This document shows positions 7,118 to 37,866 of a DNA stretch of 59,161 nucleotides, piece after piece (the first letter of the stretch is position 1; each line of letters opens with the position of its first letter). Source of the stretch: a virus. Made by a program: the position numbers and the translations under genes. The notes below the pieces were generated by a model. It saw only the letters and a list, made by a program, of their open reading frames with translations. It was not told where the DNA came from and made no database searches. The DNA is taken from positions 1 through 59,161 of the IMG/VR virus record IMGVR_UViG_3300030104_002956. One strand, 5' to 3'.

Positions 7118-8046
7118 TAACTATTTTCTTGTACCATTTCCATTTTTTGCTGTGCATCAGCTACTTGAACTACTTCAGATTCTCTAATAGATAAACCAGC
7201 GTATTTTAAAATACTTATTACTAAATCCGTTTCGTCTGACAGTGGTAACTCAAAGTCTTGATAATCTGCTTGAGATTGGTCAAAAAGAGGTTGACCACCA
7301 CTAAGAGAAGTAAAAGTCCATTTAGGGTCTTTTGGATATCTAACATATTGAGTTTGTAAATCAGCTGGTCCAGATATAGTAGTTGGATAAGCAGTAACGT
7401 TATTACCTTCTAATACATAAGCTGGATATTGTGTAGTAGGAGCTGTTAAGTTAGAGTTAGTTAAATAAAATATTTTATTTTGATGCACTCTTTCTACTTC
7501 ACTAATATTATCATTATTATAAATTACATAATTTTCTCCGCTTACTATTATGTCACTGCTTAAATTAAGTGATGTATTAGCAACTGCCGTTACAAAAGCA
7601 GATGTGGAGTCATTGGTATTTACTACTATGTCACCTATATTTACTACTCCTAAAAAGTTAGCATCCACATCATCTAATTTACCTACGGTAGTTCCCGTAG
7701 TAGTTCCTGAAGCTAACTGAGTAGAGTAATAAAATATTTTATTAATTAAATAATAATCAGTAGGAAGCGAATAAATATTGGCATTAACTCTAGTTAAGAA
7801 TGACGTAACTGAAAAACTATCTATTACTTCTTCTATTCCTTTGGTAATGTCAGCATATCCTGTTCCAGATAGTCTAGTAAGTCTGTTGTTCTCTTTATTT
7901 ATTTGATTATTATACTGGTAAAAATAATCTTCAAATATATCTAATTGTGCTTGTTTTGCGAAAAGGTTAAAGTCACTGGGAGATATGTATCCGTAATTAT
8001 TTTTATTCAGTATAGAAAGAACAGTATTTCTAACAGAATTTATCAT
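7117..8046 (-). CDS. Putative head-tail connector/stabilisation protein, 309 aa
   Basis: It starts MINSVRNTVLSILNKNNYGYISPSDFN: a short helical head domain, then beta-rich central part (about 110-230) with DDVDANFLGVVNIGDIVV-like strands. A C-terminal helix (about 265-309) ends in a Gln/Glu-rich tail. It is the first gene after a terminator and a TATCTTTG box, so it probably opens a transcript including the 307-aa and 1681-aa genes. Size and position match adaptor or ring proteins of podovirus tails. Confidence 0.7.
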   Translation of the reverse strand: MINSVRNTVLSILNKNNYGYISPSDFNLFAKQAQLDIFEDYFYQYNNQINKENNRLTRLSGTGYADITKGIEEVIDSFSVTSFLTRVNANIYSLPTDYYLINKIFYYSTQLASGTTTGTTVGKLDDVDANFLGVVNIGDIVVNTNDSTSAFVTAVANTSLNLSSDIIVSGENYVIYNNDNISEVERVHQNKIFYLTNSNLTAPTTQYPAYVLEGNNVTAYPTTISGPADLQTQYVRYPKDPKWTFTSLSGGQPLFDQSQADYQDFELPLSDETDLVISILKYAGLSIRESEVVQVADAQQKMEMVQENS

Positions 8047-8062
8047 CTAAAATCTTTTGATA

Positions 8063-8070
8063 CAAAGATA
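8063..8070 (-). promoter_or_regulatory. TATCTTTG promoter box before the 309-aa connector gene
   Basis: The minus strand reads TATCTTTG (TAnnTTTG), 16 nt before the ATG at 8046 and just downstream of the terminator at 8074-8108. This fits re-initiation of transcription for the tail genes. A TTTG at the -33 position is not evident. Confidence 0.5.
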
Positions 8071-8073
8071 AGC

Positions 8074-8108
8074 AAAAAAAAAGAGGTCCTAATCTTTTTT
8101 AGAACCTC
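8074..8108 (-). terminator. Rho-independent terminator after the 101-aa head protein gene
   Basis: On the minus strand there is a stem of seven pairs interrupted by one mismatch (positions 8101-8108 with 8083-8090; the 5' arm reads GAGGTTCT) followed by a run of nine T (complement of 8074-8082). It lies about 27 nt after the stop codon at 8135. Confidence 0.8.
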
Positions 8109-8134
8109 CCTTGTATTTTAAAAATTATCAATAA

Positions 8135-8440
8135 TTAACCGAATGTTAAACCAGAAATTTCTGGTACTCCACCAGCAGCATCTGCAATTCCAGCTAAACT
8201 TAATTGAAAAGATGGTTTTGTCCAAGCTAATTGTAAAGCTTTTAACATAGCATCTTCAATAGCATCTCTAACATCTTCATTGTTAGCGGCCATTGTATCG
8301 TGAGCTACCTCTACGTGTTTTCCTGATGTATAATGAATTTTAACTGATGTAGTACTTTCTTGTTCTACAATAGCTACATCATTTATAAGCACTAATTGGT
8401 TTTGCTCATTTTTGACGGGTATACTTAAGTATTTTTGCAT
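8135..8440 (-). CDS. Putative small head (decoration or completion) protein, 101 aa
   Basis: It is a 101-aa protein with N-terminal beta strands (SIPVKNEQNQLVLINDV) and a helical segment near 50-75, with no named motif. It is a monocistron-like unit: a TATCTTTG box lies 29 nt upstream and a terminator follows. A short, separately expressed gene near the major capsid gene suggests an abundant virion protein such as a decoration protein. That is inference only. Confidence 0.65.
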   Translation of the reverse strand: MQKYLSIPVKNEQNQLVLINDVAIVEQESTTSVKIHYTSGKHVEVAHDTMAANNEDVRDAIEDAMLKALQLAWTKPSFQLSLAGIADAAGGVPEISGLTFG

Positions 8441-8469
8441 AATAAAAAAATTTATGTGTTAATAAAAAG

Positions 8470-8477
8470 CAAAGATA
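8470..8477 (-). promoter_or_regulatory. TATCTTTG promoter box before the 101-aa gene
   Basis: The minus strand reads TATCTTTG, 29 nt before the ATG at 8440, in a 77-nt intergenic gap. It is a perfect TAnnTTTG box without an obvious -33 element. Confidence 0.5.
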
Positions 8478-8517
8478 GTCTATTTTTTTTACTGTGTTAG
8501 TGTGTTAACATACCTTA

Positions 8518-9261
8518 CTAACTCTTTAACATATCTTGAAATGCTTTGTATATCTCAACACCTTCATCTCTTTGAAAAAACCCAGCTACTGTTTGTATGT
8601 GGTCTTCACCAAAAGGAACCATTAATAGTTTAGTCTTTTTAGTTTTAAGATTATAGTAAACATCCTTACCATTGTTTCTCAAACTTAATAATCCTTTTTC
8701 AAATATTTTAACTACAGTGTCTTGTAATTCCAACATTGGGTCATTAATCGCATCTAAAAAGTCAACAGGATTATTTCTAGCAAACAATATGACATCTCTT
8801 TTTAACTCAGATGTAGTAAGTATTCTAGTGTCTAAATCTAAATATACTCTAGCTAATGTTTCCATTTGATCTATAGTTAATTCAGACGCTTGTTTGAATG
8901 CTTTAGATTCTATTTCTAAATACTCTACTTCTTTTTGAGCATCTGCTTCTTTATCTATTTCTTCAAACATTACACCATTGTCTGGATGGTAATGTAAAAA
9001 TTCCTGTAACACAGGATTTGTTTTAGCAACAAACAACATTCCATCTTCAAATATAACAGGTTCTAAAACAGCATTGCTGTCCTGCTCATCCTCAAAAGGA
9101 CTTTTTTGATTAGAAGCGTAACGTAAAGGTCTATTGTGAGTGCCATCAAAATGTAATAATGGCTTTCTTCTTGTGTTTCTAGAATTAAGTGTGAAACTTA
9201 ATGGTTGTTTATCATTTTTTAATTTATAAACACGGTCTTTTAATTCTTTCTTTTTTTTCAT
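8518..9261 (-). CDS. Conserved-looking protein next to the capsid gene, 247 aa
   Basis: It has a strongly basic N-terminus (MKKKKELKDRVYKLKNDK) followed by an Arg-rich stretch (RNTRRKPLLHF). The remainder is helical and acidic, with segments like LARVYLDLDTRIL and FLDAINDPMLELQDTVVKIF. I do not recognise the family. It lies directly downstream of the capsid gene behind a strong terminator, so its expression is probably lower than that of the capsid. A head-assembly role is inferred from position. Confidence 0.7.
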   Translation of the reverse strand: MKKKKELKDRVYKLKNDKQPLSFTLNSRNTRRKPLLHFDGTHNRPLRYASNQKSPFEDEQDSNAVLEPVIFEDGMLFVAKTNPVLQEFLHYHPDNGVMFEEIDKEADAQKEVEYLEIESKAFKQASELTIDQMETLARVYLDLDTRILTTSELKRDVILFARNNPVDFLDAINDPMLELQDTVVKIFEKGLLSLRNNGKDVYYNLKTKKTKLLMVPFGEDHIQTVAGFFQRDEGVEIYKAFQDMLKS

Positions 9262-33016: not shown

Positions 33017-33489
33017 TGAAAAAGATTGTAAGGCAGGTTCACGATAGAATACATCCGTCACACGACTATTTAAAATACTGGAGAATTATTCGTTACTGGG
33101 CAAAAAAACAATACGGATTTACCGTAGCTGATTTAGATATTATGTTTTTTCTTTACTCAGAAAGACTGTTTACTAAAACACATTTTCATAAGTATGGAAA
33201 TATTATGTCTTGGGACCCAACTCGTTTTAAAAGTTTAATCGAAAGGGGATATATTCACATATGGAGAGAAAAACAAGGTAAAGAAGCTGCTCTTTATGAA
33301 GTGACTTTTAAAGGTAAAAGAGCTATTAATAATATCTATAAGAAACTAAACGGTGAAGAAATAGCAGAATCAGCTGAAATCAACCCTATATTTAAAGACG
33401 ATGTAAGATATATGGATAAAGTTTATCGTAATGCAATACTAGAACTAAACAAGTCTATAAAACAACCACAACGTCACGCTCTTGAATAA
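33016..33489 (+). CDS. Winged-helix-like DNA-binding protein, possible regulator, 157 aa
   Basis: It is the only plus-strand gene inside the minus-strand structural block. Residues ~35-110 have a winged-helix/MarR-like order: helix (FTVADLDIMFFLYSERLFTK), a second helix, a recognition-type helix ('WDPTRFKSLIERGYI') and a beta wing (EAALYEVTFKGKRAI). The C-terminus is a helical tail. It probably binds DNA and may control the flanking minus-strand genes. Its 3' end overlaps the 3' end of groES by 35 nt, and it is divergent from the 44-aa gene. The exact family is uncertain. Confidence 0.75.
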   Translation: MKKIVRQVHDRIHPSHDYLKYWRIIRYWAKKQYGFTVADLDIMFFLYSERLFTKTHFHKYGNIMSWDPTRFKSLIERGYIHIWREKQGKEAALYEVTFKGKRAINNIYKKLNGEEIAESAEINPIFKDDVRYMDKVYRNAILELNKSIKQPQRHALE

Positions 33490-33712
33490 CCACATACGAC
33501 TGATCGTTGATGATTACCTCGTGTGCTTGTGCCTTGTCGTAATAAATAACATCTCCTTCTTTAATAGTATCTACTAAAGTCCCAGGCTTTACTACCGTAG
33601 CTTTCTTATATCTAAATGCAAATGCATCTGTTTTTGATAAAAGTAAACCCGATTTAGTTTTTAGCTCTTCTTGAGCTGGAGTAATAATTATGTATTTATT
33701 TATTGGCTTCAT
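33455..33712 (-). CDS. groES: Co-chaperonin GroES-like protein, 85 aa
   Basis: The start is ATG 33712 (MKPINKYIIITPAQEELKTK); the open frame extends to 33742. The Cpn10 pattern is visible: N-terminal beta strand, mobile-loop-like 'KTKSGLLLSK', then 'KKATVVKPGTL', 'KEGDVIYYDKAQAHEV' and a C-terminal strand (YVVIQERDVVVVL). At 85 aa it is shorter than host GroES (about 95 aa). It would cap the phage GroEL encoded ~300 nt upstream in the same operon. It overlaps the 54-aa gene. Confidence 0.85.
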   Translation of the reverse strand: MKPINKYIIITPAQEELKTKSGLLLSKTDAFAFRYKKATVVKPGTLVDTIKEGDVIYYDKAQAHEVIINDQSYVVIQERDVVVVL

Positions 33713-33860
33713 TCTTTTTAATTTTTTTAAGAGCCTCATCATATCCTGGCATATGTTTAATTAGTTCGGCTGTGCCGACTGATAGTGTAACTAAATGCTG
33801 CACTGCAGCATTTAGAGATTTTATTTTATTTTGCATTTCAATCAGCTTACTCTCTTTCAT
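33696..33860 (-). CDS. Small helical protein between groEL and groES, 54 aa
   Basis: MKESKLIEMQNKIKSLNAAV..., a single amphipathic helix of ~30 residues then 'GTAELIKHMPGYDEALKKIK'. Its start overlaps the stop of the 51-aa gene by 4 nt and its end overlaps groES by 17 nt. No recognised family. It may be made in stoichiometry with the chaperonin genes. Confidence 0.65.
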   Translation of the reverse strand: MKESKLIEMQNKIKSLNAAVQHLVTLSVGTAELIKHMPGYDEALKKIKKNEANK

Positions 33861-34012
33861 AGTTTATAAGTTATTCCAACCACTACAAAAAAACCACCAG
33901 TGGCTAAAGCATAGGTATTTGGGTTCATTCCAAGTTGTTGATTGTTCCAAATCATATTGGCTCCAGATGCTGTCATCATACTTAAGCCACCTATTATTGC
34001 TAGTCTTTTCAT
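33857..34012 (-). CDS. Small two-TM membrane protein behind groEL, 51 aa
   Basis: MKRLAIIGGLSMMTASGANM starts a protein with two hydrophobic helices (about 4-20 and 34-48) separated by 'WNNQQLGMNPN'. The ATG overlaps the groEL stop by 4 nt (ATGA). Function unknown. Confidence 0.65.
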   Translation of the reverse strand: MKRLAIIGGLSMMTASGANMIWNNQQLGMNPNTYALATGGFFVVVGITYKL

Positions 34013-35598
34013 TTTATTTCTCGTGCCATTGTAATGATGGCGTTAGTACTTAATATGGTTGTTGCTACCGATACTGCATTTTTAAGTGCGTTCTTAGTTA
34101 CTTTAAGTGGGTCTAATATTCCCATCTTGTACATATCTCCAAACATACCTTCCTTTACATCATAACCCATATTGAATTCTGAATTATTTAGCAGCCCTTC
34201 TATTTCTATAATGTCCCCGTCAGAGAGTCCAGCATTTTTCATAATGGTGAAAAAAGGAGCTTTTAAAGAGTCTGCTATGTTTTCTTCTGCTAAAGTCATT
34301 TTACCTTCAGACAATTTATTTGATTCCCTAAATAATGTCACTCCTCCTCCAGGAAGTATGCCTTCGTCTAGTGCTGAACGAACTGCACACACTGCATCAT
34401 CTACCCTATCATACTTTTCTTTCTGCTCAATGTCTGAGTTGCCACCAACATATATTACGCCAATAGCACCGTTTAAGCAAGCTATTCGCTCACTCATAAA
34501 CACAACATCTGGCTTAGACTTGGTATTGTCTTTTTGAACTTTTAACTCTTTTACTCTTTCTTTAATCACCTCTTCATCTCCGTGACCACCTAGCATAATG
34601 GTTTCATCTCTGCTTACCACTACTTTATCTACCTTACCTAAATCTTCCATTCTAATTAAGTTGAGGTCATCACCAGTCTCTTCAGCGAAATACTTACCCC
34701 CAGTTGCTACTGCTATGTCATTCATTAGCTCGTGTCGTTTGTAACCAAACTGTGGCGGCTCAATCTGACACAACTTCAACCCGTTTCTAACTACATTAGC
34801 CGATAGTGTGTTCATCACATTGGTGCTACAAGACGATATGATCAGTAGTTTGTGTCCACCATTAATAATTGGTTTTAGTACGTTCTCAATTTGCAGTACG
34901 TTACTAATAACGTGGTCCGATAATAGTACATAACAATCGTCCAATATGCACTCATCCTTTTTTTGGTTATTCACAAAAGAATTGGCACCCCACCCTCTTT
35001 TTAGTTGAATACCTTTATGAACCTCACTAAACGTTTGGTCATTTTGAGAATTTTCTACCGTAACCACGCCATCAGTACCTACCTCTAAATAAGTATCTGC
35101 TATTATTTTTCCTAGCTCTCTATCGTTGTTTGCCGATATGGTAGCTACATCCAATAATCCTTTTTTGGATAATTTCTTAGTCACTTTCTCTAAGTTTAAA
35201 ATCACTTGATCGCAATGACTATTAATCTCCCTAATGTATTTGTTAGAACTAATGTTATTTTCATCCAGGTGTTTTAACCCTTCTTTTACTATAGATTCAG
35301 CTAAAACAATAGCTGTTGTTGTTCCGTCTCCTGCTACATTCGCAGTGTTTTGAGATGACTCTCTGAGCATTTGAACTGCAAGATTCTCTACTGGATCAAG
35401 TAGCTGAACTGCCTTGGCTACTGTAACGCCATCTTTGGTAACTGTGATTCCGTGGGTGTGAGCTGGTGATTCAATAACGACTGTGTTTCCGCCTGGACCT
35501 AGCGTGCTCTTAACTGCTTCGCTAATTTTTTTGATGCCAGCTTTTAGTTTAGTTCTGGCCTCCTCGTGCAAGACGAGTTCTTTTGGATTGTATGACAT
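34009..35598 (-). CDS. groEL: Chaperonin GroEL, 529 aa
   Basis: It is a complete group I chaperonin. ATP-site landmarks are present: TLGPGGNTVVI (~32-42), 'TKDGVTVAK' (~54-62), GDGTTTA (~90-96) and, in the C-terminal equatorial domain, 'VDDAVCAVRSALDEGILPGGG' (~400-420) with the Asp that activates hydrolysis. It lacks the Gly-Gly-Met tail, ending MAREIK. It folds proteins in the ring with GroES; in the phage it may serve the capsid or the very large adhesins. It is the first gene of the minus-strand block behind a consensus promoter. Confidence 0.97.
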   Translation of the reverse strand: MSYNPKELVLHEEARTKLKAGIKKISEAVKSTLGPGGNTVVIESPAHTHGITVTKDGVTVAKAVQLLDPVENLAVQMLRESSQNTANVAGDGTTTAIVLAESIVKEGLKHLDENNISSNKYIREINSHCDQVILNLEKVTKKLSKKGLLDVATISANNDRELGKIIADTYLEVGTDGVVTVENSQNDQTFSEVHKGIQLKRGWGANSFVNNQKKDECILDDCYVLLSDHVISNVLQIENVLKPIINGGHKLLIISSCSTNVMNTLSANVVRNGLKLCQIEPPQFGYKRHELMNDIAVATGGKYFAEETGDDLNLIRMEDLGKVDKVVVSRDETIMLGGHGDEEVIKERVKELKVQKDNTKSKPDVVFMSERIACLNGAIGVIYVGGNSDIEQKEKYDRVDDAVCAVRSALDEGILPGGGVTLFRESNKLSEGKMTLAEENIADSLKAPFFTIMKNAGLSDGDIIEIEGLLNNSEFNMGYDVKEGMFGDMYKMGILDPLKVTKNALKNAVSVATTILSTNAIITMAREIK

Positions 35599-37546: not shown

Positions 37547-37575
37547 AAAGAGTATTGAATAAACAAAAAAATAAA

Positions 37576-37716
37576 AGGGGAACACAGTCCGAAAACATAT
37601 ATAATAAAATATGATAAACACACATCCATTAAATTTTTGGGGATTTTGACGAAATGAAAGAAAATTTATGAGGACTGAAACAATACTTTTCAAGGGGGCA
37701 ATTGCCCCCTTTTTTA
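37576..37716 (+). ncRNA. Possible short structured transcript ending at the terminator
   Basis: No gene is visible from 37547 to 37716. Two distant segments, CAGTCC (37585-37590) and GGACTG (37672-37677), are complementary and could close a domain of ~90 nt just before the strong terminator. This may be a 3' UTR structure or a small RNA; the pairing is short and unconfirmed. Confidence 0.3.
37691..37716 (+). terminator. Strong Rho-independent terminator
   Basis: A perfect palindrome AAGGGGGCAATTGCCCCCTT (37692-37711) is followed by TTTT and an AT-rich tail. It ends the first early transcript; the complementary strand also has A/T flanks but a weaker T run. Confidence 0.88.
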
Positions 37717-37728
37717 TTAATTAAATTC

Positions 37729-37866
37729 GCATAGACGCAAGGTGAAAAGTAAATTTATGGCAATGTGATAAAGTAGCCCAATAAGGGTAAAATTGAAATA
37801 GAGCCTTGTACCTAAACCAAGAATTTAGGAATATGGTTAATTGGGGGTTCGACTCCCCCTCTATGC
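37729..37866 (+). ncRNA. tRNA-like RNA with a very large D-loop, class II variable arm and no U33
   Basis: Acceptor stem of 7 perfect pairs (37729-37735 with 37860-37866). D-stem-like 6 bp (37737-37742 with 37804-37809) enclosing ~61 nt instead of 7-11. Anticodon-like stem of 6 bp (37811-37816 with 37824-37829) around a 7-nt loop CCAAGAA, which has C at position 33 and AAG at the anticodon position. A 13-nt variable region that can pair 3 bp. A perfect T-arm (GGGGG TTCGACT CCCCC, 37843-37859) abuts the acceptor stem. No CCA is encoded. It is too short for tmRNA. It may be a degenerate or unusual tRNA-Leu or another RNA mimicking tRNA. Confidence 0.6.

Follow-up and report, generated by a model that had tools for sequence, protein, structure and literature searches.

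The locus at positions 37729-37866 of the window, by which we mean the whole 59,161-base stretch of DNA analysed here (the complete IMG/VR entry IMGVR_UViG_3300030104_002956), raises the question of what an RNA is that pairs its ends as a tRNA does and holds 61 nt in the place of the D-loop. A preliminary description had read it as a tRNA-like RNA with an oversized D-loop, a class II variable arm and a C at position 33, and had offered an aberrant tRNA-Leu, a decayed tRNA, an att-like site or a non-tRNA RNA that borrows the acceptor and T-arm as possible identities. The acceptor stem, T-arm, D-position helix and anticodon-position hairpin that it had placed here are all present, and the RNA, which occurs once in the window, is made up as follows.

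37729..37866 (+): tRNA-like RNA, from acceptor to acceptor (from the sequence, 36 homologous viral loci and 130 bits with model R1)
37729..37735 (+): 5' strand of the acceptor, GCATAGA, pairing over 7 bp with TCTATGC at 37860-37866
37738..37742 (+): D-position helix, CAAGG pairing over 5 bp with CCTTG at 37804-37808 and enclosing 61 nt
37741..37767 (+): 5' half of the conserved D-domain, GGTGAAAAGTAAATTTATGGCAATGTG, invariant or nearly so (n = 26)
37754..37758 (+): inner helix of the large D-loop, TTTAT pairing with ATAGA at 37798-37802
37776..37789 (+): variable internal hairpin GCCC-AATAA-GGGT of the D-domain, from a fold of the core segment
37797..37804 (+): 3' half of the conserved D-domain, AATAGAGC, invariant (n = 26)
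37811..37829 (+): anticodon-position hairpin CCTAAA-CCAAGAA-TTTAGG, with a hairpin here in 26 of 26 sequences
37830..37842 (+): variable region AATATGGTTAATT, with a near-invariant AAT before the T-stem (alignment A2)
37843..37859 (+): T-arm GGGGG-TTCGACT-CCCCC
37867 and 37868: discriminator G and then a conserved C, 3' of the tRNA-like RNA

As the preliminary description had thought possible for standard finders, ARAGORN reported 0 tRNAs in the window and Rfam, run over its whole length, returned nothing at gathering level. Permissive Rfam scans of the window RNA and of two homologues (L463 and L446) gave only sub-threshold, non-reproduced matches that included T-arm fragments. A descriptor composed of the T-stem, a TTCRANY loop and an adjoining 7-bp acceptor matched 7 times in 781 kb, comprising the window phage and 14 relatives, and 0 times in the reversed sequence. 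The RNA folds with an energy z of -3.2. In its unconstrained minimum-energy fold another pairing displaces the D-position helix, so the support for that helix comes from covariation and not from energy. An eighth acceptor pair, C-1:G73, is possible in the window sequence but, judged by the homologues, is no feature of the family. The class II variable arm held up in length but not as an arm: the 13 nt of the variable region are of class II size yet form at most a 3-bp A/U stem, and the stretch 3' of the anticodon-position hairpin ranges from 10 to 43 nt across homologues and has no common arm.

The same RNA was found at 36 viral loci in IMG/VR as well as in the window, and 28 of the sequences are distinct and full-length. 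A pattern for the variable region and T-arm (TGGTTAATTN{0,6}GGTTCGANTCC) retrieved 15 viral loci, 11 of them with a common long core inside the 'D-loop', and a pattern for this D-core alone retrieved 55 loci and 33 members, which have both an acceptor and a T-arm unless the contig is too short to show them. Because these two retrievals are reciprocal, the link between the core and the tRNA half was not created by the search. The third retrieval, with the core 20-mer AGTAAATYTATGGNAATGTG, gave 36 loci and 35 members; L675 matches this 20-mer yet was rejected as a member. Conservation of TATGGNAATGTG, ATAGAGC, TGGTTAATT and the T-loop was in part selected by the patterns, whereas that of GGTGA..GTAAAT, the D-position helix and the acceptor is free of pattern selection in the first two retrievals. 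Here TATGGNAATGTG was part of one search pattern and GGTGA..GTAAAT lay outside it, and ATAGAGC, also part of one pattern, is carried as well by members retrieved without that pattern.

Members score 110-174 bits with model R1 (one truncated copy scores 72), and other tRNAs or tRNA-like RNAs, as well as class II-sized matches in genomes, reach at most 38. There is one copy in each record searched, many of these contigs being fragments. A search for extra-large inserts returned only L449 and L456, both known already. Two other queries were discarded: the CCAAGAA loop gave other tRNA-like RNAs, because this loop is not conserved, and a TTGGAT minihelix pattern retrieved a different class. When the window RNA was compared by BLAST with named phages and plasmids, the yield was T-arm pieces only or nothing; BLAST of the window RNA, L463 and L446 against 50,697 named phage records yielded no member, and none was found in a sample of 401 bacterial genomes (395 Bacteroidia under strict filters and 6 others). 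The acceptor/T-arm matches listed in a pattern scan of genome contigs were ordinary tRNAs or chance. We found no description of this RNA in the literature searched, the coverage of which was partial.

Alignment of 26 sequences (A2) gave a consensus fold that recovers the acceptor, the D-position helix, an inner UYUAU/AUAGA helix and the T-stem. When the pairs of the named structure were counted in these sequences, 93.4% of cells were paired and two-sided changes were seen in 19 pairs and 105 cells. The covariation score was 0.424 vs 0.138 +/- 0.011 after shuffling and at most 0.124 with slid partners, and 0 of 500 shuffles reached the observed values. Two-sided changes affect 6 of the 7 acceptor pairs, with G1:C72 invariant, 4 of the 5 pairs of the D-position helix (variants CAAGG/CCTTG, CCAGG/CCTGG and CATTG/CAATG) and 4 of the 5 T-stem pairs, and all three helices are paired in 100% of cells. 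Covariation in the D-stem-like and anticodon-like helices, on which the preliminary description had staked its reading in advance, is present in the homologues; for the latter, compensatory variants include CCTAAA/TTTAGG, CCTAAG/CTTAGG, CCTACG/CGTGGG and GCTACAAC/GTTGTAGT. The inner helix is paired in 26 of 26 sequences with one pair alone varying (C-G or U-G), so it is conserved but contributes little covariation evidence.

The acceptor and T-arm half is that of a tRNA, as is the two-nucleotide acceptor/D junction, which is kept throughout the family. Of 35 members, 29 have the T-loop TTCGACT; with a single exception the discriminator is a purine (A or G), and every member encodes a C at position 74. 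The acceptor sequence is highly variable, and position 3:70 is not conserved (13 GC, 7 AU, 5 CG and 1 GU; n = 26), which speaks against a single aminoacylation identity. The D-arm has been turned into a large domain with a conserved core. Its consensus is GGUGA..GUAAAUYUAUGGNAAUGUG … AAUAGAGC, with a helix of its own and variable internal hairpins; the site of the GCCC-AATAA-GGGT hairpin is taken in other members by one or two hairpins that differ from it. The preliminary description sized the '61-nt D-loop' correctly, but what it read as an oversized loop is the domain in which the RNA is conserved best.

The anticodon-position hairpin, in contrast to this core, is hypervariable, with a stem of 4-8 bp and a loop of 3-18 nt in the 26 sequences. 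The C at position 33 is real in the window loop CCAAGAA, which has 7 nt by chance, but it is no trait of the family. Given loops of 3-18 nt, C33 is incidental and decoding is excluded. An aberrant or decaying tRNA-Leu would owe its name to the AAG that CCAAGAA places at positions 34-36; this identity is contradicted by the loops of variable length, without any conserved anticodon, and by the full covariation of the helices, and we give it practically no chance. The compensatory changes in the acceptor, D-position and T helices, which leave the helix constraint intact, likewise lead us, together with these loops, to reject a decayed tRNA. The Cellulophaga phages phi38:1 and Calle_1, in which a different 140-nt tRNA-like RNA lies directly upstream of rtcB, suggested a tRNA that is split or contains an intron and is mended by the RNA ligase RtcB. 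However, the window has no RtcB, the enzyme is encoded in just 5 of 47 records (a set both with and without aberrant tRNA-like RNAs), and removal of the conserved core leaves no excisable tRNA because no anticodon arm is fixed. The link to splicing or repair comes from these two phages and is not general, so that such an origin is highly improbable.

The window phage has the terminase, portal, capsid, GroEL and Sak-type annealing protein that place it among the crAss-like flavophages, a group that includes the Flavobacterium elemo and Cellulophaga phages. Its GroEL and a probable GroES partner are encoded at 34009-35598 and 33455-33742 (-). The terminase type of the window, TerL phrog_6681, occurs in 7 carriers. 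L454 is T4-like, with a gp32-like single-strand binding protein and a helicase beside the RNA, L446 has T4-type genes (thymidylate synthase and a DnaK-like ORF), and L471 has a third terminase type, TerL phrog_38. The RNA is therefore common to at least three unrelated kinds of phage, namely crAss-like flavophages, T4-like phages and a third-terminase group, and so crosses phage lineages. Compared with the RNA of the T4-like L454, the window RNA shows 90% identity; the values are 73-80% for the remaining T4-like carriers and 62-66% for the remaining crAss-like ones. That it is closer to a T4-like RNA than to those of crAss-like carriers points to horizontal transfer, and transfer between phage lineages is the simplest reading of these identities. 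We found no convincing partner gene shared across the carrier lineages, many of the contigs being fragments.

This lack of a partner gene fits a tRNA-scaffolded regulator, in which the D-core or a hairpin loop would pair with a host or phage RNA, as an sRNA or sponge does, and the tRNA half would serve for stability only. The conserved single-stranded stretches GUGAAAAGUAAAU and GGNAAUGUG and the hypervariable side hairpins are also in keeping with such a regulator, but its conservation across unrelated phages would demand a deeply conserved target, and we regard it as somewhat unlikely.

The RNA lies in a block of about 330 bp that is absent from the closest relative, L002, where both flanking genes adjoin and the downstream protein is 83% identical to that of the window. 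By this comparison the block is accessory, which would account for the absence of homologues among close relatives searched with an MCP and T-arm pattern. Two further elements of this block precede the RNA.

37550..37691 (+): second structured element with helices GAGTATTG/CAATACTT and AGTCC/GGACT (fold z = -4.1)
37692..37715 (+): intrinsic terminator AAGGGGGC-AATT-GCCCCCTT followed by a T-run (from sequence and fold)

In two relatives the second element is conserved at about 84% and shows one compensatory change, from AGTCC/GGACT to AATCC/GGATT; the stretch 37550-37715, which includes the terminator, is kept in the relatives G004 (L225) and G006 (L228) without the tRNA-like RNA. The terminator ends 13 nt 5' of the RNA, between it and the upstream gene, and the next gene starts 27 nt 3' of the RNA. 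Since we found no clear promoter and no downstream terminator for the RNA in the window, the RNA may there be made by read-through or be transcribed together with the next gene. L447, L457 and L459 have a strong terminator within 10 nt 3' of the RNA. In the L463 group G1 is the last base of a promoter-like repeat, TTTGGAACTTTTAA…AGTATAATAAGTAATA, and several contigs have elements of this kind again 3' of the RNA. A simple pattern for this element is infrequent elsewhere in the same contigs, and on that account an own promoter for the RNA is no more than suggested. In L494 another tRNA-like RNA lies directly 5' of the RNA. Six T4-like carriers (L446, L447, L448, L452, L457 and L459) share a conserved hairpin about 10-50 nt 5' of the RNA, with the loop CCTGATGGCAACGCGA and the covarying stems ATTAGGTGG/CCACCCCTAAT and ATTAGAGG/CCTCTAAT.

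This setting bears on the possibility that the acceptor and T-arm are merely a signal for RNase P and 3' processing that cuts phage transcripts between genes. The short distance to the next gene in the window is what such tRNA punctuation would predict, as are the tRNA-like minihelices that in other phages come right after stop codons and before start codons. A minihelix would suffice for cutting, yet the D-core is conserved across lineages; moreover, the RNA is followed directly by a terminator in L447, L457 and L459, stands behind a terminator in the window and is present in a single copy per genome. We therefore consider punctuation unlikely. The single genomic copy, along with the T4-like contigs among the carriers, lends no support to the suggested att-like site, whereas a non-tRNA RNA that borrows the acceptor and T-arm is the proposal of the preliminary description that the family bears out.

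The best explanation, to which we assign a probability of roughly 45%, is a non-coding phage RNA of about 140-215 nt that is free-standing and horizontally mobile and has a tRNA for its scaffold; most likely it would serve as a decoy for, or an inhibitor of, either a host protein that handles tRNAs or a defence nuclease directed at them. It is probably a new RNA tool, mobile among phages, that works on the machinery of the host. RNase P and the enzymes of 3' processing and CCA addition need no more of a tRNA than the stacked helix of acceptor and T-arm, so those of the host would be expected to mature the RNA and to protect it. They, and possibly T-loop modification as well, would handle the acceptor/T half like that of a tRNA and would leave the RNA with defined, protected ends; the conserved D-domain would most likely be the working part and bind a host factor. 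No gene is common to all carriers, which makes a phage protein partner unlikely, and the acceptors are too varied for one synthetase; for these reasons a decoy or inhibitor would be the likeliest role. It is our leading guess also because phage tRNAs are known to counter immunity that is directed at tRNAs, as in the case of T5 tRNA-Lys and PARIS (PMC11455837). The D-core may also have a riboswitch-like or ligand-binding, a catalytic or a base-pairing role. More tentatively, we hypothesize that the family represents an undescribed class of phage effector RNA, in which the tRNA top half is a handle for maturation and recruitment and the D-domain acts on a host protein of tRNA handling or defence by inhibiting, baiting or hijacking it; such RNAs would travel among unrelated phages much as an anti-host gene does.

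Acceptor/T-arm RNAs missed by the tRNA finder are found in this and other phage groups, both as minihelices and as longer RNAs with replaced middles. They lie outside the family of the window RNA, but they suggest that phages commonly make use of tRNA halves that do not decode. Minihelix RNAs were seen in L257, L271, L287, L307, L319, L323, L342, L348, L350 and L362, and also in G027 (about 24601, -) and G041 (2905 and 6937, +). They have a 6-7 bp acceptor, a linker that is usually ATTGGATNN(N), a 5-7 bp T-stem and a TTCGAYT or TTCGAAT loop, amounting to 11-13 bp without a D-stem or an anticodon arm, and the three read in context (in G027 and G041) lie at or just past a stop codon. L349 contains at 7240-9040 (about 58300-60100 of G051) an array of about a dozen units of ~125 nt, each consisting of a hairpin that, with its loop (T/C)TGTGAA, resembles the anticodon arm of tRNA-His, and then a minihelix of acceptor and T-arm. 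The acceptors differ per unit and always pair, ARAGORN reports 0 tRNAs, and the array looks like split or rearranged tRNA-like RNAs.

Among the longer RNAs are the unannotated tRNA-like RNAs of ~140 nt upstream of rtcB in phi38:1 (NC_021796.1, 20678-20817, -) and Calle_1 (NC_062744.1, 49296-49435, +), which have a covarying hairpin and, at 21 bits with R1, fall outside the window family. MW202828.1 (L377) has two tandem tRNA-like RNAs at 523-697, 5' of a terminator and with 0 ARAGORN hits; the second has an acceptor, a D-arm and a T-arm, and a 12-nt linker replaces its anticodon arm. In L013, L007, L213, L440, L444 and others, viral tRNA-Leu-like RNAs with the acceptor AGTCAGG combine a constant acceptor, D-arm (GTGGCGGAATTGGTAGACGC) and T-arm with hypervariable middles that differ in length, and L444 at least retains an ordinary-looking anticodon arm. 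Both Cellulophaga phages share a conserved orphan T-arm, GAGGG-TTCGATT-CCCTC (W04:C1:43287 in L425 and W03:C1:26817 in L419), for which no 7-bp acceptor partner was detectable within the stretch read.

Plant RNA viruses supply the most familiar examples of viral tRNA mimicry. If our reading is true, a conserved tRNA mimic that does not decode and is shared by unrelated DNA phages would represent a new type of RNA for host takeover or counter-defence. Because standard tRNA finders pass over it, this RNA goes unannotated, and the finding indicates a larger set of phage RNAs with an acceptor and T-arm but no anticodon arm, hardly any of it annotated. The covariation-supported model makes the RNA searchable, and the conserved D-core offers a specific bait for a host partner.

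Among known systems, tmRNA (RF00023) is likewise free-standing and shares the acceptor/T-arm half of a tRNA; neither RNA has an anticodon arm that decodes. A tmRNA derivative, that is, the tRNA-like domain of tmRNA minus its message part, would also have its anticodon arm replaced, and the tmRNA model does match the window RNA weakly, at 16.2 bits against a gathering score of 47. That match covers the T-arm alone, however. Unlike tmRNA, the phage RNA lacks the alanine identity G3:U70, its 3:70 pair being G-C, A-U or C-G with one G-U, and lacks a tag reading frame, since no frame after AUG is conserved and the one that follows AUGGNAAUG stops early or at different places among members (alignment A2); in addition, its D-position helix is present and enlarged. 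The pairs at 3:70, the frames and the T-arm-only match contradict such a derivation, which we rate as very improbable. DUF2693 RNA (RF02956) resembles the phage RNA in its cloverleaf-like consensus and T-arm-like arm but has no conserved D-core. We rejected this identity as well: the window match is weak (20.2 bits; gathering score 81.3) and is absent for L463 and L446. Class II tRNAs (Leu, Ser and Tyr) and tRNA-Sec share the acceptor, the T-arm and the two-nucleotide acceptor/D junction, whereas the phage RNA has no 7-nt anticodon loop with U33 and has a D-domain of at least 60 nt with a conserved core.

YrlA (RF02553) and the tRNA-like structures of plant viruses use tRNA mimicry for non-decoding ends. 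In Rfam, YrlA did not match the window RNA, though it weakly matched another tRNA-like RNA in MW202828. GOLLD and ROOL are structured phage or prophage RNAs of unknown function that are often found near tRNA islands (PMC12286853); they resemble the phage RNA in being structured and phage-encoded but are multimeric, several hundred nt long and without an Rfam match here. Phage tRNAs that escape anticodon nucleases, as in the case of T5 tRNA-Lys and PARIS (PMC11455837), provide the precedent of a phage tRNA-type RNA set against a tRNA-directed defence, although the T5 tRNA decodes and the phage RNA has no anticodon. Measured against all families tested, whether tmRNA, functional tRNA or DUF2693 RNA, the RNA of this family is a tRNA mimic that stands outside them.
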